Assembly: GCA_009885905.1 (NCBI GenBank)
Contig: VFJU01000560.1
Span: forward strand, 1-12,420
From: Verrucomicrobiota bacterium
Lineage (GTDB): Bacteria > Verrucomicrobiota > Verrucomicrobiia > Verrucomicrobiales > Akkermansiaceae
Direction of reading: 5' to 3'
Length of the DNA: 12,420 nt
Part shown: in pieces, positions 2,592 through 12,420 of the stretch
Position numbering within the stretch: the stretch's first letter is position 1
Layout of the letters: every line of letters begins with the position of its first letter
Notes under the pieces: generated by a model
What the model was told of the DNA's origin: nothing
What the model saw: only the letters and a program-made list of their open reading frames with translations
Database searches by the model: none
Translations under genes and position numbers: made by a program

Positions 2592-3683
2592 GTGCTGACG
2601 GGGTTGCATTCAGACGTGAGCGATACTTCTCCAAGATCTTTGCATGACCTCGGATTTTCCGAACTGGTCGCCATGCTCGCGGCCGACGGAGTGATTCTCC
2701 ATCATGCCAAAGTCCTTTGGCGGGTGATCCACGGCCATGGTGAGCTGGATTTGGCATCGCGGGATTTCCTGCCGCCGCTCAAACGCTGGGTCGCAGACTC
2801 CGTGGGGGAGGGGAAGCGGTTTTTTCTCGATGCGCCTGAACTGGTGGATGAAATTTACAGCTCAGACGGACTGACGCGGAAATTTTTGCTGCGACTGCGC
2901 GATGGTCAGACGATCGAGACGGTGCTGATGGCTTATGCTGGCCGGCACACAGTTTGTGTGAGTACTCAGGCGGGCTGTGCGATGGGTTGTGTCTTCTGTG
3001 CCACCGGGCAAATGGGTTTTGTCCGGCACTTGAGACCCGGAGAAATCATCGCGCAAGTGCTTCACGTGCGACGAGTTTTAAAAGCCATCGATCCTAAAAA
3101 ACGCCTTAGAAATATGGTTCTCATGGGAATGGGCGAGCCACTTCATAACTACGACTCCGTGATGGCCGCGCTGGAAACGATTTCAGATCGACGAGGGTCG
3201 GGCATCGGGCCGACGCGGATTTCCATCAGCACCGTGGGCGTTGTTCCGGCCATCCTCAGGCTCGCGGAGGAAGAACGGCCGTACTGTCTCGCTGTCAGTT
3301 TACACGGTTCGACTGAGGAGGAACGCGCCGCATTGGTGCCGGCGAGCAAGCGTTGGCCGCTGGCCATGCTGATCGATGCCTGCCGACGATATGCGGTGAT
3401 CACTCGGAGGCGGATTTTTTTCGAGTGGACGCTCATCGCTGGAAAAAACGACTCGCCGGAGACGGCCAAGCGCTTGCTGGAGTTACTTTCCGGCATCGAC
3501 GCGCACATCAATTTGATCCCGCTCAACCCCACGGGAGGCTTCGCGGGATTACAGAGCGATGCCGGGCATGAGTTTCAAAAAATCCTAATTGCGGGTGGCA
3601 TCCCATGCACCTTCCGCCAACGCCGAGGCATCGATGTGGCGGCGGGATGCGGAATGCTGAGGGCCGAGAGGCGACTAAAATAG
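2592..3683 (+). CDS. rlmN: Dual-specificity 23S rRNA/tRNA adenosine C2-methyltransferase RlmN
   Basis: RlmN is a cytoplasmic radical-SAM enzyme that methylates C2 of A2503 in 23S rRNA and A37 of some tRNAs. The protein is 363 residues, the normal family length. The radical-SAM cluster motif CAMGCVFC gives C129, C133 and C136, followed by ATGQMGF, which is the RlmN form rather than the Cfr form. The two catalytic cysteines are present: C122 in VCVST (E. coli C118 position) and C353 in AAGCGML (the methyl-carrying E. coli C355 position). The GMGEPLHNYD and ISISTVG segments, and the Pro/Asn-rich LIPLNP near the C-terminus, also fit. An in-frame stop at 2583-2585 limits the start; GTG at 2592 is used, GTG at 2616 is an equally plausible alternative, and neither has a clear Shine-Dalgarno. 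It is a housekeeping gene, apparently separate from the operon that follows. Confidence 0.96.
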   Translation: MLTGLHSDVSDTSPRSLHDLGFSELVAMLAADGVILHHAKVLWRVIHGHGELDLASRDFLPPLKRWVADSVGEGKRFFLDAPELVDEIYSSDGLTRKFLLRLRDGQTIETVLMAYAGRHTVCVSTQAGCAMGCVFCATGQMGFVRHLRPGEIIAQVLHVRRVLKAIDPKKRLRNMVLMGMGEPLHNYDSVMAALETISDRRGSGIGPTRISISTVGVVPAILRLAEEERPYCLAVSLHGSTEEERAALVPASKRWPLAMLIDACRRYAVITRRRIFFEWTLIAGKNDSPETAKRLLELLSGIDAHINLIPLNPTGGFAGLQSDAGHEFQKILIAGGIPCTFRQRRGIDVAAGCGMLRAERRLK

Positions 3684-3705
3684 CTTCTAGGGTTGGGGAA
3701 TTGAG

Positions 3706-3731
3706 CCAATGTGACGGTTTCGTCACATTGG
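3706..3731 (+). terminator. Strong hairpin between rlmN and the secretion operon (terminator or operator)
   Basis: CCAATGTGACG (3706-3716) and CGTCACATTGG (3721-3731) form a perfect 11-bp stem closing a GTTT loop, 22 bases after the rlmN stop. No T-run follows the stem, so it is not a textbook intrinsic terminator; it could be a factor-assisted terminator for rlmN, or a dyad operator for the operon starting at 3796. The left arm AGCCAAT (3704-3710) can also pair with ATTGGCT (3746-3752), which would open an alternative fold. Confidence 0.55.
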
Positions 3732-3746
3732 TGCCCTTGAGACAAA

Positions 3747-3776
3747 TTGGCTGACTCGATGATTCTTGATTTCAAT
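3747..3776 (+). promoter_or_regulatory. Weak candidate sigma70-type promoter for the operon
   Basis: TTGGCT (3747-3752) and TTCAAT (3771-3776), separated by 18 bases, each match four of six positions of the -35 and -10 consensus. Transcription would start about a dozen bases before the ATG at 3796. The match is weak and promoter rules in this phylum are poorly known, so this only marks where the promoter should be sought. TTGAGA at 3737-3742 is a better -35 but lacks a -10 at normal spacing. Confidence 0.2.
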
Positions 3777-3795
3777 TTTACCTCAGGGCTTTGGC

Positions 3796-5403
3796 ATGCG
3801 TTTCCTTCAATCATCTAACTTCAATCTACCTATGGTCCTAGCGGCGTTAGGTTCGTTGTTTTTGGTGTTGAGTCAGTCGGCACTTGGGGTGGAGGAAGTC
3901 GTCACCTTTTACATCCGCGAATACCGCGTAGACGGGGCGAAGCGTCTGAAAAACCTTGAAGTAGAAGAGGCGGTTTATCCGTTTCTCGGTCCAGCACGCA
4001 CGCCGAACGACGTCGAACAGGCGCGCATGGCACTGGAAAAAGTCTATCACGATAAAGGATTTCAAACCGTCTCGGTTAACGTTCCTCAGCAAGATCCCCG
4101 CCGTGGGGTGATCCGTTTGGAGGTGGTCGAAAACAAAGTCGGGCGGCTTCGGGTGAACGGCGCGCGCTGGTTTTTGCCAAGCCAGATCAAGCGCGAGGCC
4201 CCTTCGATCGCGGAAGGCAACGTGCCGGACTTAAAACAGGTCGGGAAGGAGATCGTGGCCCTCAACCGCTTGGGTGACCGGCGCGTGACACCGGTCTTGC
4301 GGCAAGGCGTGGAACCAGGGACGGTAGACATCGATCTCAATGTCGAAGACAAACTACCGCTGCATGGGTCGTTAGAACTCAACAACCGATACAGTGCGAA
4401 CACCACACCACTCCGGGTCAATGGTTCGTTGAGCTATGGAAATTTATTTCAGCTAGGACACACGGGTGGATTGAGTTTTCAAATCGCACCGGAAAATACC
4501 AACGACGCACTTGTTTTCTCTGGCTACTATCTGGCTCGTATTTCGGAGGGCATGAGTCTGATGGCGCAAGCGACCAAGCAGGACAGCAATGTCTCTACCC
4601 TCGGAGGTGGCGCAGTCGCTGGTCGCGGAGAAATCGCCGGCTTACGTATGCTGCTAGATTTGCCAACCACTCCCAAGTTTTATCAAAATGTCACCCTCGG
4701 TATCGATTGGAAAAACCTCGAAGAAGATATCGTCATCGGTGAAGATATCATATCATCTCCGATTGAATATTACCCACTGAGTGCAAACTACATGGCCACT
4801 TGGATGCACGATACGAGTTTCACAGCGCTTAACACATCGCTTAATTTCAGCTTGCGTGGCGCTGGTGACAGTGAGGAAGACTACGCAAACAAGCGCTACA
4901 ATGCAGATGGAAGTTACGTCTATTTGCGTGGTGATTTGGCCCACACTCGAGACCTACCGTGCGATTTTCAGTTATTTGGAAAATTCCAAGGGCAGGTTGC
5001 AAGTCAACCACTCGTCAACACCGAACAATTTGCGGGTGGGGGACTCGACACGGTGCGGGGCTACCTTGAGGCCACGGTGTTAGGTGATAACGGTTTTTTC
5101 GGTACAGTCGAGTTTTTGAGCCCATCGTTGATCGGCAATTCCACCGATGCGGGCAAGGTGTCAGATCGTGAATCTAACGAGTGGCGTTTTTTCGCCTTCA
5201 GCGATGCTGGGATGGTAGGAATTTATGATGCACTACCTGGTCAAGAATCGCAGTTCAGTCTGGCAAGTTTAGGTATTGGTAGCCGCGTGAAGTTTCACAA
5301 ACATTACAACGGATCAGTGGATGTGGCCTACCCGCTTGTTGAGCAAGCAGACACCGACCAAGGCGAAGTCCGCGTCACTTTCCGCAGCTGGGCCGAATTC
5401 TAA
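3796..5403 (+). CDS. TpsB-family outer-membrane transporter (ShlB/FhaC/HecB type)
   Basis: TpsB proteins are outer-membrane barrels that bind and export a large partner (TpsA) in two-partner secretion. The protein is 535 residues from ATG 3796, chosen over an upstream TTG at 3766 because AGGG (3785-3788) sits seven bases before it and a signal peptide then begins properly (residues 1-31, likely cleaved after ALG). Residues about 36-112 form the first POTRA domain (YIREYRVDGAKRL onward). Residues about 113-186 form the second, with the family-typical RRVTPVLRQGVEPGTVDIDL and then LPLHGSLELNNRYS. The rest is the barrel, with GGGLDTVRGYLE supplying the conserved loop-6 VRGY arginine (R421) and FAFSDAGMVGI matching the late F-D-G motif. 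It ends in Phe, the usual barrel-assembly signal. It is the first gene of the eight-gene run; its probable cargo is the last one in the window. Confidence 0.93.
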   Translation: MRFLQSSNFNLPMVLAALGSLFLVLSQSALGVEEVVTFYIREYRVDGAKRLKNLEVEEAVYPFLGPARTPNDVEQARMALEKVYHDKGFQTVSVNVPQQDPRRGVIRLEVVENKVGRLRVNGARWFLPSQIKREAPSIAEGNVPDLKQVGKEIVALNRLGDRRVTPVLRQGVEPGTVDIDLNVEDKLPLHGSLELNNRYSANTTPLRVNGSLSYGNLFQLGHTGGLSFQIAPENTNDALVFSGYYLARISEGMSLMAQATKQDSNVSTLGGGAVAGRGEIAGLRMLLDLPTTPKFYQNVTLGIDWKNLEEDIVIGEDIISSPIEYYPLSANYMATWMHDTSFTALNTSLNFSLRGAGDSEEDYANKRYNADGSYVYLRGDLAHTRDLPCDFQLFGKFQGQVASQPLVNTEQFAGGGLDTVRGYLEATVLGDNGFFGTVEFLSPSLIGNSTDAGKVSDRESNEWRFFAFSDAGMVGIYDALPGQESQFSLASLGIGSRVKFHKHYNGSVDVAYPLVEQADTDQGEVRVTFRSWAEF

Positions 5404-5422
5404 CAATAATTTATTCAATCTT

Positions 5423-7315
5423 ATGAATCAACGCTCCATATTTTCACTGCTTAGTCGTCTAGCCATATCAGTCGTTCTGACGGGTCATCTGCAAGCAGAA
5501 GAAGCCGCCGCCGCATGGTGGAATCCGGACTGGTCACAGCGCCAACCGCTCACCCTCGACACCGGAGCAGACGCTGCCGGAATCACCGATCCAGCAGGCG
5601 TTGTCACGGTGCTGGTTCGTCTTCATGATGGAAATTTCCAATTTGCCAACGCTCGTGAGGACGGTAGTGACCTGCGTTTCGTCGCTGCCGATGGCAAGAC
5701 GATCTTGTCACACCAGATCGAGAGTTATGACAACCTACTGAACGAGGCATTTGTTTGGGTGAAGTTTCCGGAGGTGAAGCCTGCATCGAAGGAAGTCATT
5801 AATGTTTACTACGGCAATGTCGACGCTGCCATGTCAGCGCCCGAAAAGCCCACCGCCACCTATGACTCGGACACCGTTCTGGTCTATCACTTTGCTGGAC
5901 GTGGCACGGCTCCTACAGACGCCACGGCCAATACTAACAATTCCGACACCGTCGCAACCACCGCAGAGAGTTCACTCATCGGCAACGGTCTTCGTCTGCT
6001 AGGAAATTCTCCTGTATTAATTCCTAACACGCCAACATTGGAGTGGAAAGTTGGCCAACTTTTGACCATTTCCACTTGGATTAAACCTTCGGCTCTCCAA
6101 GAGAATGCTGTCATCCTGAGTCGTGCTGACGGTCAGAATTCGATCCGTTTGCTTATCGATCAGGGGGTTCCAGTGATCCAGTTTGGTTCCACCCGCAGTC
6201 AGGCTGGTGCGCCTCTCGCGCCTTTGGTTTGGAGTCACCTAGTGCTCGTGGCGGATGGAATGACATTGAAGCTCGTCGTGAATGGAGTCACTTATGCAAG
6301 CATTGAGGGCACACTACCCGCCTTAAATAGTCCCTATTCCATAGGTGGTCTCGTCACCGAGGCTACTGGAATTAATTCATTCAGCGGTGAGCTCGATGAG
6401 TTAAGCATTTCAAAAATAGCCCGCACCGAATCATGGGCGAAACTTATGTTTGCGACGCAAGGTGCCTCGGATACTGCGCAACGCACCCTCTCCATCGGTG
6501 CGATGGAAATGGGCGAAGGCGGCGGCGAGCATGGTGGTGTCATGGAGCATCTATCACTTTTTGGCGATATTGCCAATAACATGATGTTTGACGGTTGGAT
6601 CGCCATCGGTGTCTGCGCCATCATGATCGTTGTCGGTTGGACCGTTGCGGTGAAAAAATTCATCTATCTGAATTCCATTGAAAAGGGGACAAAGATTTTT
6701 CTTAAAAAATGGAAAGAGCTCTCCACCGATCTCACGGCGCTCGATACAGAAGACAACAAGAGTGTTAGCAGCCTCGGCGGGCAAGTAGACGATTCCGATC
6801 AATCGCTCATCCAGAAATCTCCGCTCTTCCATATTTACAAGATCGGAGCCGATGAAATCCGCCACCGTCTTGATCAAGATAACACGCGCGTTCATGGCCT
6901 TTCCGGCCGTTCCATTCAGGCAATTCGCGCTAGCCTTGACGCGGGCTTGGTCCATGAAACTCACCGCCTCTCCGACGGCCTCGTTTACCTCACCATGAGT
7001 ATTGCCGGTGGGCCGTATGTTGGATTGTTAGGTACTGTGGTGGGCGTGATGATCACTTTCGCGATCATTGCGAAATCTGGTGAGGTCAACGTCAATTCCA
7101 TCGCCCCGGGTATTGCTTCAGCGCTTCTCGCAACCGTTGTTGGTCTCGTTGTCGCCATTCCTGCGCTCTTCATTTACAGTTATATAAACGGACGTATCAA
7201 AAACTCACTCGGCTTGATGCAGGTCTTCATCGACGAGTTTGTCGCCAAGATGGCCGAGTTCTATCGGCCTCTTAATGCTGAATCTGATTCCAACGGTGGC
7301 GGCTCAAGCCATTAA
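5423..7315 (+). CDS. exbB: ExbB/TolQ/MotA-family proton channel fused to periplasmic DUF2341 and LamG domains
   Basis: ExbB with ExbD uses the proton gradient to drive TonB. This 630-residue version is far longer than ordinary ExbB (about 240). A signal peptide (about residues 1-26, ending HLQA) is followed by a DUF2341 domain (about 32-134: WWNPDWSQR, then GSDLRFVAADGKT, HQIESYD, VWVKFPEV, VYYGN). Next comes a laminin-G/concanavalin-like fold (about 147-345: VLVYHF, ISTWIKPS, WSHLVLVADG, GELDELSISK). Then come a first membrane helix (about 387-410), a cytoplasmic loop, and the ExbB core GLLGTVVGVM and APGIASALLATVVGLVVAIPA (about 530-590). T538 and T571 sit 33 residues apart, as do the functional E. 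coli ExbB residues T148 and T181. The start ATG 5423 is chosen because it opens the signal peptide; there is no Shine-Dalgarno. Topology puts the lectin-like part in the periplasm. It lies 19 bases after the TpsB gene and 20 before exbD. Confidence 0.92.
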   Translation: MNQRSIFSLLSRLAISVVLTGHLQAEEAAAAWWNPDWSQRQPLTLDTGADAAGITDPAGVVTVLVRLHDGNFQFANAREDGSDLRFVAADGKTILSHQIESYDNLLNEAFVWVKFPEVKPASKEVINVYYGNVDAAMSAPEKPTATYDSDTVLVYHFAGRGTAPTDATANTNNSDTVATTAESSLIGNGLRLLGNSPVLIPNTPTLEWKVGQLLTISTWIKPSALQENAVILSRADGQNSIRLLIDQGVPVIQFGSTRSQAGAPLAPLVWSHLVLVADGMTLKLVVNGVTYASIEGTLPALNSPYSIGGLVTEATGINSFSGELDELSISKIARTESWAKLMFATQGASDTAQRTLSIGAMEMGEGGGEHGGVMEHLSLFGDIANNMMFDGWIAIGVCAIMIVVGWTVAVKKFIYLNSIEKGTKIFLKKWKELSTDLTALDTEDNKSVSSLGGQVDDSDQSLIQKSPLFHIYKIGADEIRHRLDQDNTRVHGLSGRSIQAIRASLDAGLVHETHRLSDGLVYLTMSIAGGPYVGLLGTVVGVMITFAIIAKSGEVNVNSIAPGIASALLATVVGLVVAIPALFIYSYINGRIKNSLGLMQVFIDEFVAKMAEFYRPLNAESDSNGGGSSH

Positions 7316-7335
7316 TTCTTAAATTTCAAATTCCC

Positions 7336-7746
7336 ATGGCCTCTTCAGAAAGTAACTACGACGACATCAACGTCACCCCGATGGTGGACCTTTACCTCGT
7401 TCTCCTGCTGATTTTCATCATCATGACCACTGCTGGTGTGCAGGGCGTGAAGGTAAATTTGCCAAGCGCTAGCAAGAGTGCTGCTAAGAAAATGGAGGAG
7501 CCTAAAACGCAGGCGATCACGATCGATACCTCCGGTAAGATCAAGCTCAACGCTGTCGGTGTAACCCTTGATGAACTTGATTCCAAACTAAAGGCGCTCG
7601 TTGCGGCAAACAAAGATGTTCCCGTGGTGGTGCGTGGTGACGGGCAAAACCAATACCAAGGAATCATGGACGTGCTTGATGTCTTGGGTCGTAACAACAT
7701 CAGCCAGATCGGCCTCGCAACCCAAGCGCCGAAGGGCGGAAAGTAA
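7336..7746 (+). CDS. exbD: ExbD/TolR-family biopolymer transport protein
   Basis: ExbD pairs with ExbB to form the proton-driven stator that energises TonB at the inner membrane. The protein is 136 residues, the usual size. A short cytoplasmic N-terminus leads into INVTPMVDLYLVLLLIFII, a single membrane helix (about residues 17-36) with D18 in the place of the essential E. coli ExbD D25. The periplasmic part contains KVNLPSA, then AITIDTSGKIKLNA and VPVVVRGDGQNQYQGIMDVLDVL, the standard ExbD/TolR fold pattern. The ATG at 7336 is preceded by AT-rich sequence with no Shine-Dalgarno. It sits between the exbB fusion and tonB in the normal exbB-exbD-tonB order. Confidence 0.95.
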   Translation: MASSESNYDDINVTPMVDLYLVLLLIFIIMTTAGVQGVKVNLPSASKSAAKKMEEPKTQAITIDTSGKIKLNAVGVTLDELDSKLKALVAANKDVPVVVRGDGQNQYQGIMDVLDVLGRNNISQIGLATQAPKGGK

Positions 7747-7758
7747 TTTTTGCTGCGC

Positions 7759-8463
7759 ATGTCATCCAGACCTACAATTTCACCGGTGCCGCCCAAGCCG
7801 AACAAGCAACGTCTCTTCATTGGGGTGGTGTTGGCGATTGTGCTGTTAGGTGGTATCGCGTCGTTTTTGGTCAATGGTGGAAAAAGCAAAAAATCACGAC
7901 CGAGGAAATCTGAGATTGTTCAGATCACCCTCCCACCACCACCGCCGCCACCACCACCGCCGAGGGTTGAACCACCCAAGGAAGAGCCGCCGAAGGAGGA
8001 CGAGATGGTCGAGCAGGAACCTGTGCCCGATGATGAACCGCCCCCAGACAACACGCCGTTGGAAGCTCCTTCGGATGATCTATCCACTGGTATCGCCGGC
8101 AATGGTCCCGACATGGGACTTAGTGGTGGCAATGGCAACGGTGGAAAAATCGGCGGTAAGGGTCGTAAAGGTGGTGGCAGCAAATACGGTTGGTACGCAG
8201 CCAAAGTCCAGACGTCCATCGCGGACGCGCTCCGCAGGCACCCATCCACACGTAATGCCAAAATGGTTCTGCAGGTGCGAGTCTGGCCAGATTCTAACGG
8301 ACGGATCACTCGTGCGCAACTTGTTGGTTCATCCGGAAATCCGGCGGTAGATCAAGCCATTAAAAATCAAATTCTAACTGGATTACAGCTTCCGCAAGCA
8401 CCGCCCGCGGATATGCCCGTCCCTATTGTCCTTCGTATTTCCGCCAGCAAGGCGTTGCTCTAA
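7759..8463 (+). CDS. tonB: TonB-family energy transducer
   Basis: TonB spans the periplasm and pulls on outer-membrane partners. The protein is 234 residues from ATG 7759; a TTG three codons upstream (7750) is possible but less likely. A membrane anchor covers about residues 19-38, preceded by a short Pro-rich cytoplasmic tail. A run of ten prolines (59-68) opens the Pro/Glu-rich linker, followed by a Gly/Asn/Lys-rich stretch (about 115-145). The C-terminal TonB domain (about 168-232) has VRVWPDSNGRITRAQLVGSSG, then NPAVDQAIKNQILTGLQLP and VPIVLRISA, the typical pattern. It lies 12 bases after exbD. Which outer-membrane protein it contacts is not shown; no TonB-dependent receptor with a plug domain is present in the window, only the TpsB barrel and the porin-like barrel. 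Confidence 0.93.
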   Translation: MSSRPTISPVPPKPNKQRLFIGVVLAIVLLGGIASFLVNGGKSKKSRPRKSEIVQITLPPPPPPPPPPRVEPPKEEPPKEDEMVEQEPVPDDEPPPDNTPLEAPSDDLSTGIAGNGPDMGLSGGNGNGGKIGGKGRKGGGSKYGWYAAKVQTSIADALRRHPSTRNAKMVLQVRVWPDSNGRITRAQLVGSSGNPAVDQAIKNQILTGLQLPQAPPADMPVPIVLRISASKALL

Positions 8464-8481
8464 CTTCTATTTTCTATTTCT

Positions 8482-10314
8482 ATGTTCTTTGTTCGTTCAT
8501 TCCTCATCGTCGCCTTCCTCGGAGCTAGCAGTCAGCTACGAGCAGAAGACGAAGTCGCCACCGAGACCACTCCAGTCGAGGCACCTGCAAGCACCCCTGC
8601 GCCATCAGAAGCACTGGATCCCACCATTGAGGCCCCACGTTCGTCTGATCTACCATCAGATTTACCGGCCATCGCTCCTGCGGCACCGTCTCCAAATGTC
8701 ACGGTGAATCTCATCAATCGCCTCGTGCAAAAAGGCATCCTTACCCAAGCGGAAGCAAGCGAGATGATTCAACAAGCGGAGGCCGATGCCGTCACCGCCT
8801 CGCAGAATGCATCTGCTCAAGCCGATGTCGCCGCTCTTCCTCCCCTACCAAACCCAGATGAAATGCGCATCACCTACATCCCTGAGGTTGTTAAAAACAA
8901 CATGCGCGATCAAATCAAACAGGAACTCATGGCTGCGGCCCGTGAGGAGAAATGGAGCGAGAAAAAATACCCAGATTGGACTTCCAAGTTTCGCCCGTTC
9001 GGCGATCTCCGGGTTCGTTGGGAAAACACAATCTATCCTGATGGTAACGATGACTCAGGTGCGTTTCCTAATTTCAACGCCATCAATAGAGATAAACCCT
9101 ACGACGCATCGCAAACTAATCCTAACTATGCGCAGCAATACAACGTCGACCAAAATCGCGATCGAATCCGTTTGAGAGCTCGTATCGGCACGGACATCAT
9201 GATTGGTGAGGGTTTTAATGGTGGAATCCGCCTCGTTACGGGGGATAATAACGCGCCCACTTCATCGAACCAAACCTTGGGCGGTTCTGGTGGTGACTTT
9301 TCAAAATATGCCATTTGGATTGATCGAGCATTTTTAAGCTACGACGTCGGACCTGGGCGCGGCGAGGAGTTGGTATTTCTAGCAGGTCGCTTTGATAATC
9401 CTTTTTTCTCGAGCGAAATGCAATGGGATAAGGATCTCGGATTCGATGGTCTGGCAGTGCGTGGGAAAGTTAAAATTAACGACAATGTTTCCACGTTTTT
9501 TACAGGTGGTTATTTTCCAATCTATAATACGGATGTCAATTCAGCTGAGAATCAGCCAACGAAATATCCAAGCACTAACAAATGGCTGACGGGTGCACAA
9601 ATTGGCGTCGATTGGAAAGTCGCAGAGGACTGGAAAACCAAATTCGCCATCGCTTATTACGGTTTTGACGGAGTTCAAGGCAAGCTATCGAAACCATATA
9701 TTCCGTTAAGTGACCGTGATGCGGGCAACACCGACACAACACGCCCAAGCTTCGCTCAACGTGGAAATACTTACATGGCTCTCCGTGACATCGATAATTC
9801 GACCTCAGCGAATGACTATGGCAATGAAGACCAATATCAATATTATGGGCTTTCTTCTGAGTTCGAAAATCTAACGATGACCGGTAAGATTGAGTATGAC
9901 GGATACGATCCTGTGACCATTTCTCTCGTGGGTGAGGCAACGAAGAACATCGCATTCGATTCTAGTACTAACGAAATCACCGCCATCACCAATCGTGGTG
10001 GTGATAACGTGTACGAAGGTGGCGATTTTGGTTGGTACACGGCCCTTGTGGTTGGCAAGCCTGCCCTTGAGGCGTTTGGTGATTGGCAGGCAGGCTTTGG
10101 TTACCGCTACGTTGAGAGTGATGCAGTGGTTGACGGTTTTACCGACTCAGATTTTGGCGGTGGCGGCACCAACGTGAAAGGATTCACCTTAGGAGGTACT
10201 TTCGCGCTATCTCCCTTCGTTCGTCTCAGCCTTGTTTGGATGAGTGCTAATGAAATCGCAGGGCCACCTCTTAGTTCCGACATCATCCAGTTTGACATCA
10301 ACGCTAATTTCTAA
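8482..10314 (+). CDS. Putative outer-membrane porin (Porin_5-like) with N-terminal periplasmic extension
   Basis: The protein is 610 residues. A signal peptide covers about residues 1-21 (cleavage after LRA). Residues about 22-72 are a Pro/Ala/Glu-rich, probably unstructured linker. Residues about 75-106 are a predicted helix with LVQKGILTQAEASEMI, a motif seen ahead of barrels in several such porins. From about 167 (SKFRPFGDLRVRWEN) to the terminal Phe the sequence alternates short amphipathic strands and Gly/Asp/Asn-rich turns, as in an outer-membrane barrel; LSYDVGPG, FLAGRFDNPFF and GDWQAGFGYRYVESDAV fit the putative-porin family. The end QFDINANF is a good barrel-assembly signal. There is no Shine-Dalgarno before ATG 8482. 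It follows tonB by 18 bases, so it could be a TonB client or a structural partner in the envelope. The substrate is unknown, and the family name is from pattern recognition. Confidence 0.8.
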   Translation: MFFVRSFLIVAFLGASSQLRAEDEVATETTPVEAPASTPAPSEALDPTIEAPRSSDLPSDLPAIAPAAPSPNVTVNLINRLVQKGILTQAEASEMIQQAEADAVTASQNASAQADVAALPPLPNPDEMRITYIPEVVKNNMRDQIKQELMAAAREEKWSEKKYPDWTSKFRPFGDLRVRWENTIYPDGNDDSGAFPNFNAINRDKPYDASQTNPNYAQQYNVDQNRDRIRLRARIGTDIMIGEGFNGGIRLVTGDNNAPTSSNQTLGGSGGDFSKYAIWIDRAFLSYDVGPGRGEELVFLAGRFDNPFFSSEMQWDKDLGFDGLAVRGKVKINDNVSTFFTGGYFPIYNTDVNSAENQPTKYPSTNKWLTGAQIGVDWKVAEDWKTKFAIAYYGFDGVQGKLSKPYIPLSDRDAGNTDTTRPSFAQRGNTYMALRDIDNSTSANDYGNEDQYQYYGLSSEFENLTMTGKIEYDGYDPVTISLVGEATKNIAFDSSTNEITAITNRGGDNVYEGGDFGWYTALVVGKPALEAFGDWQAGFGYRYVESDAVVDGFTDSDFGGGGTNVKGFTLGGTFALSPFVRLSLVWMSANEIAGPPLSSDIIQFDINANF

Positions 10315-10321
10315 CTACTAT

Positions 10322-11032
10322 ATGAATTTTTTATCATTAACCATTTCCAAGTGGCTCGGACTTCTTGCACCAAACCGATGCGGATGCGTCTCGCTAACAG
10401 CGACCGTTCTGTTTGCGTTTCTCGCTCAACCACTTCAGTCGGCTCCGGAAGTTGATCCCACGATCAAGCTCCGCGAGCAACTCCGGACGGTCATGCTCCA
10501 GCTCCGCACGTCACAAATCGATGCTGCCAATGCATTGGCTGAGAAGGCCATCGCCGAAAAAAAAGCCGAAGACCAAGCGGTCAAGATCACCGAACTGGAC
10601 AAGCGTTACGCAACCCTCGTTAAGCAGGGTAATGCCGATAAAACTGCCTCAGATGAGACCATTGCTAAGCTCAATAACAAAGTCGCCGAGCGCGATAAAC
10701 GCATCGAGGAATTCACCAAGGCACTCGAGGAATGGAAATTGGGCTATCAGAAAGCTGCGGCGATTGCTCGCACCAAGGAAGACGAGCGTGCAACGCTTGC
10801 CTCCGAGGTCATTGTCAACAAGCGCACGATCGCAGATCTTCAATCCAAGAATATCGTATTGTTCAATACCTCTAACGAAATTCTCGACCGCTATGAAAGC
10901 TATGCCCTCGGCAAAGCGCTTGGAGCACGCGAACCCTTCATCGGCACCACTCGCGTAAAAATCGAAAACCAAGTGCAAGGCTACAAGGATAAGATTCTCG
11001 ACAACCGTCTCGCGGCCCCGGTCAAACCATGA
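10322..11032 (+). CDS. Exported coiled-coil protein of unknown function
   Basis: This 236-residue protein has no function I can name. A long signal peptide (about residues 1-41: basic start, hydrophobic LTATVLFAFLA, likely cleavage after QSA) predicts export to the periplasm; C20 and C22 lie within it and do not form a convincing lipobox. Residues about 46-180 are charged and heptad-like (many Ala, Lys, Glu, Leu), consistent with a long coiled coil. Residues about 181-232 form a different, compact-looking block: NTSNEILDRYESYALG, KALGAREPFIGTTRVKIENQ and VQGYKDKILDNR, which resembles a conserved C-terminal module. It starts 7 bases after the porin stop with no Shine-Dalgarno. Position between a porin and a prolyl isomerase suggests a periplasmic scaffold, tether or holdase chaperone for the secretion system, but that is inference. 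Confidence 0.8.
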   Translation: MNFLSLTISKWLGLLAPNRCGCVSLTATVLFAFLAQPLQSAPEVDPTIKLREQLRTVMLQLRTSQIDAANALAEKAIAEKKAEDQAVKITELDKRYATLVKQGNADKTASDETIAKLNNKVAERDKRIEEFTKALEEWKLGYQKAAAIARTKEDERATLASEVIVNKRTIADLQSKNIVLFNTSNEILDRYESYALGKALGAREPFIGTTRVKIENQVQGYKDKILDNRLAAPVKP

Positions 11033-11064
11033 AATTAGCTGGGCCGTCTCGACCCGATTCCTGA
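11029..11064 (+). CDS. Possible coupling mini-ORF (11 codons) before the isomerase gene
   Basis: ATG at 11029 overlaps the stop of the coiled-coil gene as ATGA and opens an 11-residue frame, MKLAGPSRPDS, ending 7 bases before the isomerase ATG. It may exist only to hand ribosomes to the next gene by stop-start re-initiation. A second mini-ORF with the same layout follows the isomerase gene. Chance is a real alternative. Confidence 0.3.
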   Translation: MKLAGPSRPDS

Positions 11065-11071
11065 TTTCCGC

Positions 11072-11914
11072 ATGAAATTCACAATACTCATCCTTCTCCT
11101 TGCCACCCTCGCACACGCGGCACCTGCTGACGTGCTTGGCAAGGTAGGGGACATTGAAATCACCAGCACCGATGTCCGTGAGATGATTGCTGGGCTCGAT
11201 GCTGAACAACAAGCGGCCCTCGCCAAAGATCCCGAGGCTCTCGGACAATACGTCCGCGCCCTCCTTGTCCAGCGCTTGGTCTTGAAGCAAGCTCTTGACC
11301 AAAAGTGGGATCAAGAACCCGCAGTTATCTCAAAACTCGTGCGAGCCCGTGAGGCAGCGCTCACGGAAAGTTTTCTCCAGAATGCGTCGGTTTCTAACGC
11401 TTCTTACCCAAGCGCGGAGGAACTCAGTGCAGCCTACGAAGTCGCCAAGTCCAAGCTCATCATTCCTCGCAGTTACAAACTCGCTCAGATCTACATCGCC
11501 AAGGATAAGGCGAAAATGGAGAGCATCTCCAAGCAGATCAAAGCCAAGGGTGCCGACTTCGCCACCATCGCCCGTAGTTCGAGTGAAGAGTCTACCAGTG
11601 CCGCCAAAGGGGGAGAAATCGGCTGGCTAACTGAAGACCAAATCCAACCTGAAATCCGTGAAAAAATTCTCACTCTAGCTCCGGGAAAAGTTGGAGAGCC
11701 TGTTAGTCTTCAAGACGGTTGGCACCTCATCAAGGTACTGGAGATCCGTGAGCCTAGGACACCTGCACTGGATGAAATTCGTGACAATCTCGTCACACAG
11801 CTTCGAAAAGATCGTTCTCGCAGCATACGACAAGAGTATCTCGCCACTTTGTTGAAAGACCATCCGCTTGCAATCAACGAAATCGAGCTTACGAAGTTAG
11901 TCGAAAAACCATGA
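11072..11914 (+). CDS. Exported parvulin-type peptidyl-prolyl cis-trans isomerase (PpiC/SurA-like)
   Basis: These proteins assist folding of exported and outer-membrane proteins in the periplasm. The protein is 280 residues. A clear signal peptide (1-16, cleavage after AHA) is followed by an N-terminal helical region beginning VLGKVGDIEITSTDV, as in SurA/PrsA-type proteins. Next comes a parvulin domain at about 133-229: YKLAQIYIA, FATIARSSSEESTSAAKGGEIGWL, and PGKVGEPVSLQDGWHLIKVLEI. One parvulin domain is present, whereas E. coli SurA has two. No lipobox is visible. ATG 11072 lacks a Shine-Dalgarno and is preceded by a mini-ORF. Its place directly before a large secreted protein and after outer-membrane barrels suggests it keeps the exported partner or the barrels competent in the periplasm. 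Confidence 0.92.
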   Translation: MKFTILILLLATLAHAAPADVLGKVGDIEITSTDVREMIAGLDAEQQAALAKDPEALGQYVRALLVQRLVLKQALDQKWDQEPAVISKLVRAREAALTESFLQNASVSNASYPSAEELSAAYEVAKSKLIIPRSYKLAQIYIAKDKAKMESISKQIKAKGADFATIARSSSEESTSAAKGGEIGWLTEDQIQPEIREKILTLAPGKVGEPVSLQDGWHLIKVLEIREPRTPALDEIRDNLVTQLRKDRSRSIRQEYLATLLKDHPLAINEIELTKLVEKP

Positions 11915-11943
11915 TGTTTAACATTTTGGAAGAGATCAACTAA
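11911..11943 (+). CDS. Possible coupling mini-ORF (10 codons) before the exoprotein gene
   Basis: ATG at 11911 overlaps the isomerase stop as ATGA and encodes MMFNILEEIN, stopping 9 bases before the exoprotein ATG at 11953. The overlap lies in AAACCATGA, the same nine bases found at the previous junction. A GGAAGAG at 11928-11934 lies inside it, 18 bases from the exoprotein start, too far for a standard ribosome binding site. It may act in translational coupling or be chance. Confidence 0.3.
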   Translation: MMFNILEEIN

Positions 11944-11952
11944 CACAATTTA

Positions 11953-12420
11953 ATGATGACTAAACGATTATACTTTAAAACGATCCAGCGTTTCAGCACG
12001 CGGGTGTTTTTGGGCGTTTTCGTTTATCTAACAAATGCTCAAGTTGAGGGTCGCGATATTCTTCGGCCGTCTTCCTCATCGGGTGGTGCTGTGGCGCCGA
12101 CTGGATCCAACGGCGCGGCCCTCACTCGCGCCGCCACGGATGCCGCGCGGGCTAACACTCAAGACATTCTCCGCCGCACCGGCCAAACGCTCGACGCGAT
12201 GCGCGCGATGCAGGCCGCCGCCCGCGCTGCTGCTGGCAACGGCCCTAACAGTCTAGGCCCCAATCTCCCCGACGTCCCTAACGGCCTCCGCAGCGGTGGC
12301 CTCAACCCTGTCGCCGATGCCGCCACTAACCCGGCCCGTTGGTCCGGTGCGGGACAACCTGTGGAGACGATCAATGGCGAGAACGTCAGCGTCACCATCA
12401 AGCAGACCACGCAACAAGCG
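11953..12420 (+). CDS. N-terminus of a large secreted protein, probable TpsA exoprotein (partial)
   Basis: The frame is open from ATG 11953 (or the next codon, also ATG) to the window edge, 156 codons. A basic N-terminus and hydrophobic RVFLGVFVYLTNAQ (about residues 16-31) make a signal peptide. Then comes an Ala/Arg/Asn/Gly-rich stretch of about 100 residues, part of it probably helical (LTRAATDAARAN, LDAMRAMQAAARAAAG). The window closes on PVETINGENVSVTIKQTTQQA, which resembles the opening of the TPS (haemagglutinin-activity) domain as it occurs in Verrucomicrobiota exoproteins, where it leads to a beta-helix. TpsA proteins are usually very large, so most of the gene should lie to the right. 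The call rests on the TpsB gene in the same operon, the signal peptide and this terminal motif; the decisive domain is outside the window. The G+C of this segment looks visibly higher than that of the porin gene. Confidence 0.7.
   Translation, partial: MMTKRLYFKTIQRFSTRVFLGVFVYLTNAQVEGRDILRPSSSSGGAVAPTGSNGAALTRAATDAARANTQDILRRTGQTLDAMRAMQAAARAAAGNGPNSLGPNLPDVPNGLRSGGLNPVADAATNPARWSGAGQPVETINGENVSVTIKQTTQQA

Follow-up and report, generated by a model that had tools for sequence, protein, structure and literature searches.

Organization of the Locus

The stretch of DNA analyzed here (the window, 12,420 nucleotides) is the entire contig C334 (GenBank VFJU01000560.1) of the 2.78 Mb genome G000, which belongs to a Verrucomicrobiota bacterium of the Akkermansiaceae. 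Between positions 3796 and 12420 it carries eight genes in one co-directional run on the + strand (Table 1), among them tpsB of a two-partner secretion (TPS, type Vb) system. Among named records, those closest to the window are assemblies of Akkermansiaceae and other Verrucomicrobia. This run had been described in the initial annotation and is borne out both by the coordinates of the open reading frames and by a profile scan of ten window proteins, in which six of the eight gene products received Pfam support. The intergenic gaps are, in order, 19, 20, 3 or 12, 18, 7, 39, and 38 bases, the third being 3 bases if tonB starts at TTG 7750 and 12 bases if it starts at ATG 7759. Because the window is the whole contig, the last gene, tpsA, is cut by the assembly. 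Upstream of the run lie an MFS gene and a second gene, which we take to be lpxK, on the − strand, and a radical-SAM gene, presumably rlmN, on the + strand.

Table 1. Features of the gene run and of the region upstream of it (positions in the window).
Feature	Position	Strand	Description
Operator-like palindrome CCAATGTGACGGTTTCGTCACATTGG	3706..3731		Exact core TGTGAC-N6-GTCACA at 3710-3727
tpsB	3796..5403	+	ShlB/FhaC-type outer-membrane transporter; POTRA_2 (PF08479) 9e-15 and ShlB (PF03865) 2e-12, both over cut-offs
exbB	5423..7315	+	DUF2341 and LamG N-terminal to MotA/TolQ/ExbB proton-channel domain (MotA_ExbB)
exbD	7336..7746	+	PF02472 4e-26; transmembrane Asp (P-M-V-D)
tonB	7759..8463 (ATG; TTG 7750 alternative)	+	Anchor, D-box-like strand IVQITL, polyproline, TonB_2 C-terminal domain (PF13103) 9e-11
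porin	8482..10314	+	Porin_5 (PF16930) E 1e-189
Coiled-coil protein	10322..11032	+	Conserved C-terminal REPF region; PA0697 counterpart by position
PpiC-type parvulin	11072..11914	+	Rotamase_3 5e-20
tpsA start (probable giant TPS exoprotein)	11953->12420	+	N-terminal similarity to relatives; gene cut by contig end

In the region 3600-12420, 11 promoter-like matches were found, where shuffled sequences gave a mean of 6.3 (sd 2.4); the 13 terminator-like matches compare with a mean of 10.3 (sd 3.2) after shuffling. One promoter-like match (10292-10321) covers the end of the porin gene and the gap 5′ of the coiled-coil gene, and there may be an internal promoter at this point.

The run encodes the features of a complete Ton motor, namely the ExbB channel domain, the transmembrane Asp of ExbD, and the C-terminal domain of TonB. 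No Plug domain was matched in the ten window proteins scanned, which agrees with the earlier statement that the operon has no plug-domain receptor; a scan of the window's genome located two Plug receptors elsewhere. The coiled-coil protein matched no Pfam family above cut-off in the window scan.

Features of the Encoded Proteins

TpsB matches the structure of CdiB (6wim, 1e-10). In most rows of the TpsB alignment, few residues lie between the signal peptide, whose end was placed by eye, and POTRA1. The structure model of TpsB is of low confidence (pLDDT 42), and the few residues ahead of POTRA1 may leave little room for an N-terminal plug helix such as that of FhaC. The aligned N-termini of the TpsB clade are variable and share no conserved linear motif.

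The identity of ExbB as initially annotated was upheld by the MotA_ExbB match, and its fusion to DUF2341 and LamG is an addition to that first reading. The protein aligns with those of relatives over 91-100% of its length and has a conserved channel region. Because its similarity to the Methylosinus and Klebsiella proteins spans residues 28-614, the DUF2341-LamG part is common to these bacteria as well. The D-box-like strand of TonB was recognized by a pattern given in the excerpted text of PMC10907165.

In the predicted structure model of Porin_5, 16 strands are preceded by N-terminal helices. Close database matches of this porin include proteins named as Luteolibacter. The motif MRITYIPEVV (residues 128-137) is conserved across phyla and ranks 27th in conservation among 600 segments, 26 segments of the protein being more conserved, and it overlaps a low-confidence stretch of the structure model.

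The 156 aa of TpsA encoded in the window have no Pfam match; over 85-156 residues, they share 37-65% identity with the N-terminal ends of co-located giant proteins in relatives. In two TpsA proteins of relatives that were scanned in part, the TPS domain PF05860 was matched at 5e-16 and 3e-16, and one of the two has a C-terminal DUF3739 (PF12545). Open frames of 3,720-4,035 aa contain 18 of the 25 matches to DUF3739 in relatives, and the other 7 lie in shorter frames. This domain is missing from 8 of the 25 genomes that carry the module, the window's own among them, and G003 is the one genome in which it was matched although the module is absent.

Inheritance of the Module in Verrucomicrobiota

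Conservation of the gene order in relatives, by which the initial annotation had proposed to judge the arrangement, was found at several levels: relatives within the order have the same run, as do four members of the class from outside the order (L068-L071), and the gene set recurs in other phyla. Because the run is conserved in relatives and in other phyla, a chance arrangement is excluded.

In 59 related genomes, including that of the window, the 25 genomes with the TpsB clade are also those with the fused ExbB and those with Porin_5, and the other 34 have none of the three (Fisher value for co-occurrence 3e-17, relatedness ignored). Membership of the TpsB clade was set at E below 1e-90, and TpsB matches at E 1e-44 or weaker were taken as paralogues. 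Counted as present were the contig-edge pieces of Porin_5 in G027, G029 (37 residues), and G058 and the ExbB of G020, which has one in-frame stop; the ExbB matches of G001, G005, and G012 (E below 1e-60), which cover the channel domain only, were left out. In the window's genus, the module is present in 19 of 37 genomes and absent from 18, and therefore it has been gained or lost as a unit. Of eight control loci with distant TpsB paralogues (L080-L087), none (0/8) has an exbB, exbD, tonB, porin, coiled-coil, or PpiC gene.

A similar association was found in 145 phylum-wide genomes, where full-length Porin_5 (not counting that of the window) and DUF3739 are both found in the same four genomes, all of which carry the module. 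Matches to PF16930 in frames of 371-556 aa, which account for 35 of the 40 matched genomes, were excluded from this full-length count. Over 35 locus entries, two of which (L091 and L094) are stretches of one plasmid, the genes were counted as follows: tpsB in 33, exbB in 34, exbD in 34, tonB in 31, porin in 34, coiled-coil in 30, PpiC in 18, and YbjN in 4. One genome, G009, has four near-identical copies of the module.

Counterparts in Proteobacteria

According to excerpts of three reports (PMC2729926, PMC7035377, PMC4971064), the pdt locus of Pseudomonas aeruginosa comprises PA0690 pdtA, phdA, PA0692 pdtB, exbB2, exbD2, tonB4, PA0696 (a putative outer membrane porin), PA0697, PA0698 (YbjN), and PA0699 (PpiC); it is induced by phosphate starvation, and both PhoB and the sigma factor VreI are required. 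PhoB binds the pdtA and phdA promoters and is needed there (excerpt of PMC4971064). Measured against this published list, the window has the same gene set, and from tpsB through PpiC the order of the genes is almost identical. The two loci differ in that tpsA closes the run in the window, whereas pdtA lies upstream in P. aeruginosa, and in that the window has no YbjN, phdA, or vreA/ECF/FecR genes. They are alike in the unexplained role of the Ton part, which is called "still uncharacterized" in the excerpted text of PMC7035377, and they would also be alike in a control by phosphate starvation, which is proposed here for the window. The run is very likely the Verrucomicrobiota counterpart of the pdt locus.

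The set is also present on plasmids of Methylosinus (pMSC49a), Klebsiella (pKqq_SB98_1), Cupriavidus, Aquabacterium, and Methylomagnum. These proteobacterial plasmids, like the window, have exbB (with the DUF2341 region)-exbD-tonB and a porin gene, and mostly tpsB, coiled-coil, PpiC, and FHA-type TpsA genes as well; several of the sets include YbjN, which the window does not have. The set of Methylosinus is adjoined by ECF/FecR/STN genes. In Methylomagnum, the parts are split over one plasmid, with the motor genes apart from tpsB-tpsA and with phosphate genes near the porin gene. In the stretches read, Aquabacterium is without tpsB and Cupriavidus without tpsA. Most parts were also found in Burkholderia arboris, in an unannotated stretch. 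The named Pseudomonas porins belong to PF16930, and the 16 rows matched by the Klebsiella porin, including that of Pseudomonas purpurea, are 33-36% identical to the window porin.

Because the gene set occurs in Proteobacteria and matches the published pdt locus, it is not new, and a view of the arrangement as unprecedented is not supported; an association of TPS, ExbBD, and PA0696 in other Proteobacteria is already noted in the excerpted text of PMC2729926. Titles and abstract openings among the literature matches listed mention neither this locus in Verrucomicrobiota nor a TonB-powered TPS. We regard the locus as a new branch of a type that has been described before and is still unexplained.

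Several of the products have been seen under phosphate limitation in Pseudomonas, according to excerpts of the published work. At low phosphate, both P. putida BIRD-1 and P. fluorescens SBW25 produce a PF16930 protein, which a phoBR mutant of BIRD-1 lacks in its exoproteome (PMC5082522), and PdtA, PA0696, and PA0698 are among the most enriched proteins at low phosphate (PMC9769906). VreI-induced virulence in zebrafish was retained when tpsA, tpsB, the tonB homologue, or PA0696 was disrupted by insertion (excerpt of PMC2729926). PdtA contributes to virulence in a nematode model (excerpt of PMC5422565), and a role beyond phosphorus is therefore possible.

A Palindrome Common to tpsB and Phosphate Genes

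What is novel here is a rare palindrome, TGTGAC-N6-GTCACA, whose core is located 68 bp ahead of the ATG of tpsB. Exact copies of the core occur twice in the window's genome, before tpsB (C334:3710) and 48 bp before a phoB-like gene (C271:5793). The response regulator encoded at the latter site, which is followed by a PhoR/PnpS-like kinase, has PhoB as its best NCBIfam model, with 217.8 bits against a cut-off of 296.2; the response regulators scored best as PhoB, yet below the curated cut-off.

The palindrome was found by scanning 27 tpsB upstream regions, 15 of which have a match at 11 or 12 of the 12 core positions (exact in 10). A match of 11/12 or better is missing from the other 12, namely L038 (G009), L042 (the second copy of G032), L044 (G016), L049 and L050 (G038), L051 (G045), L052, L053, L057, L068, L069, and L070; among these, L050 and L051 have 10/12 matches, and L068, L069, and L070 are three of the four class-level loci. 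Upstream of Porin_O_P, pstS, or phoU, a match of 11 or 12 of 12 was found in 18 of 20 stretches; two of the 18 are divergent promoters common with tpsB and one has a spacing of 5. The Porin_O_P/pst cluster of the window's genome has a 10/12 site only (p about 0.06).

The exact core occurs 104 times in 44 of the 59 genomes (0-6 per genome), whereas a reversed control core is absent from 57 of the 59, with 10 copies in G046 and 1 in G051. Of these 104 sites, 75 were listed, and 54 of the listed ones could be assigned to a gene class: 22 are 46-50 bp upstream of phoB, 22 are at the Pi-uptake genes Porin_O_P, pstS, or phoU, 9 are at tpsB (that of G030 included, and one in common with Porin_O_P), and 1 is at a GT4-type glycosyltransferase gene (lipid models best, below cut-off). 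The remaining 21 listed sites have no assigned gene class, and G029:C181:14808, which is 190 bp away from a response regulator gene 60% like phoB, was kept in this group. Because the 28 genomes that contain the 75 listed sites all belong to the window's genus, many of these sites represent one inherited site. Three class-less sites, G021:C226, G018:C26, and G026:C67, are close to a PhoU-domain match and were left uncounted.

The palindrome was also considered as a terminator of the upstream gene. In five tpsB loci (L037, L047, L054, L055, and L056) the upstream gene is divergent, and therefore the hairpin is not its terminator, which rules out this explanation for these five loci.

Phosphate genes are also found close to the module. 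PstS genes lie within 10 kb of it in 4 of 29 genomes, where 0.21 would be expected (Poisson P 7e-5). In G006, G036, and G071, a PhoU, pstS, or Porin_O_P gene is next to tpsB or separated from it by one gene. Because the palindrome is common to phoB and Pi-uptake genes, the operon is probably under Pho control, like pdt, and we consider this likely with good confidence, although a good site is missing from 12 of the 27 tpsB loci. The palindrome has the form of an inverted repeat, in contrast to the pho box described in the excerpted text of PMC4971064, which consists of direct repeats. Because of this difference and because the regulators score below the cut-off, PhoB is regarded here as a candidate for the protein that binds the palindrome.

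Proposed Function and Alternatives

Gene content, inheritance as a unit, and a rare palindrome common to phoB-phoR and Pi-uptake genes characterize the locus. In the model that we prefer, it encodes a pdt-type TPS with a dedicated ExbB-ExbD-TonB and Porin_5, acting as a surface system for phosphate starvation; as a whole chain, this model has about an even chance of being correct. When phosphate is short, a PhoB-type regulator would bind the palindrome and turn the operon on. TpsB, aided by the parvulin, would then export the giant TPS/DUF3739 exoprotein, which would stay at or near the surface and capture or handle a phosphorus-containing substrate. The ExbBD motor would move TonB, whose C-terminal domain may engage the N-terminal periplasmic motif of Porin_5, and this engagement would drive or gate uptake of the captured material through Porin_5.

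The porin is favored as the partner of TonB because its motif is conserved across phyla, in contrast to the variable N-terminus of TpsB. An action of TonB on Porin_5 is nevertheless a tentative assignment, to which we give somewhat less than an even chance, and the capture of a phosphorus substrate by TpsA is more tentative again. The most general form of the model would be a novel type of energized outer-membrane uptake by a plugless 16-strand porin, with a private ExbBD-TonB, an N-terminal Ton-box-like motif, and a giant TPS exoprotein collecting phosphorus-containing polymers, from Verrucomicrobiota to Pseudomonas under independent Pho-type switches; in this full form it is rather unlikely. 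Among the roles initially suggested, that of a surface adhesin coupled with uptake by way of the porin comes nearer to the preferred model, although the context of phosphorus starvation was missing, and nothing was found in favor of TonB-assisted export or anchoring.

By analogy, the nearest working model is HxuABC, in which TpsA captures and a TonB-dependent transporter takes up (excerpt of PMC5422565). In HxuCBA of Haemophilus influenzae, which acts on haem-haemopexin, TpsA and TpsB are encoded with the TonB-dependent transporter HxuC and act together with it in capture and uptake. The operon described there has three genes and no motor, whereas the present locus would combine a plugless porin with a private motor.

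It is also conceivable, though unlikely, that ExbBD-TonB acts on TpsB, or on TpsA in its translocation, release, or anchoring, so that the locus would be a powered TPS for exoproteins of about 4,000 residues. The motor genes are inherited together with tpsB, the TpsA proteins are very long, and the TpsB clade has little room for an N-terminal plug helix and may therefore be gated differently, all of which would suit a powered export. According to the excerpted text of PMC5422565, however, TPS operates with no outside source of energy, and an in vitro reconstitution of type V secretion required no external energy input, in agreement with the initial remark that no energy source is established for known TPS. 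Moreover, powered export would leave the constant presence of Porin_5 unexplained, it finds no conserved linear motif at the N-terminus of TpsB, and the separate position of the motor genes on the Methylomagnum plasmid speaks against it.

Improbable, too, is that the parts are co-regulated and mechanically separate, with TpsA/TpsB as an adhesin system, Porin_5 as a passive channel, and TonB serving plug receptors encoded elsewhere. Such receptors are available in all 22 of the module genomes scanned (of 29), at 1-9 each, and the ExbB channel domain shares 67-71% identity with its equivalent in a DUF3450-ExbB-ExbD-TonB-TPR operon of relatives, which adjoins a plug receptor in L112. However, none of the Plug matches in the 22 scanned genomes lies inside a module, and fused ExbB, TpsB, and Porin_5 would have no reason in such a scheme to co-occur without exception across 59 genomes. 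The receptor-linked ExbB also has an operon of its own and differs from that of the module in its N-terminal part, in the accompanying TPR and DUF3450 genes, and in the plug receptor nearby (families scanned in L112); this operon is presumably TonB2/TtpC-like.

Finally, that the palindrome is the site of another regulator, near phosphate genes by coincidence, and that the operon is without Pho control is very improbable: the inverted repeat unlike the direct-repeat pho box and the 21 class-less sites among the 75 listed (104 in all) would fit, but 44 of those listed divide equally between positions 46-50 bp before phoB-phoR and Pi-uptake genes, Pi genes adjoin the module in G006, G036, and G071, and the Pseudomonas locus is PhoB-dependent (excerpt of PMC4971064).

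Implications

Two distant phyla have a TPS that is accompanied by a motor and a porin of its own and is apparently governed by phosphate-type switches. Whether Ton motors act on anything beyond plug receptors thereby becomes a testable question, as does the purpose of the pdt locus, and Pseudomonas putida and Luteolibacter are indicated as harmless test hosts. In the Akkermansiaceae-like group, the palindrome is a candidate Pho operator. The likely role of pdt moves from virulence toward phosphorus scavenging.

Palindrome sites beyond the one upstream of tpsB

A copy of the operator-like palindrome TGTGAC-N6-GTCACA with one mismatch lies within the PpiC gene of the window (11780-11797), approximately 155 bp upstream of tpsA, and is probably a coincidence of coding sequence. 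Even so, at three loci in relatives (L031, L070 and L121), tpsA is preceded by its own, weaker palindrome sites. The palindrome also precedes a gene for a GT4-type glycosyltransferase at two loci (L183 and L185), which would fit phosphorus-sparing lipid remodelling. At two further loci (L194 and L205), an exact palindrome is followed, 85 bp on, by mutually similar proteins with a signal-like N-terminus, which are possibly additional members of the palindrome regulon.

Operon copies and variation in tpsA and tpsB

One relative (G009) carries four near-identical copies of the operon (L038-L041, on contigs C8, C9, C11 and C13), all at the ends of contigs; of the two with upstream DNA to compare, L039 has the palindrome and L038 lacks it. 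Four genomes (L112-L115; G012, G001, G005 and G002) have an exb operon that shares 67-71% identity with the window in the channel domain of ExbB; at L112 this operon contains genes for DUF3450, TonB, TPR and a plug receptor. On the Klebsiella plasmid pMagicconchshell_02 (L089), tpsB is split into two pieces, and a tpsA match was not found within the stretch read. Additional tpsA genes of the DUF3739 type occur in G045 and G038 (L117, L118 and L121), with no tpsB found beside them within the stretches read, as if several exoproteins used one transporter.
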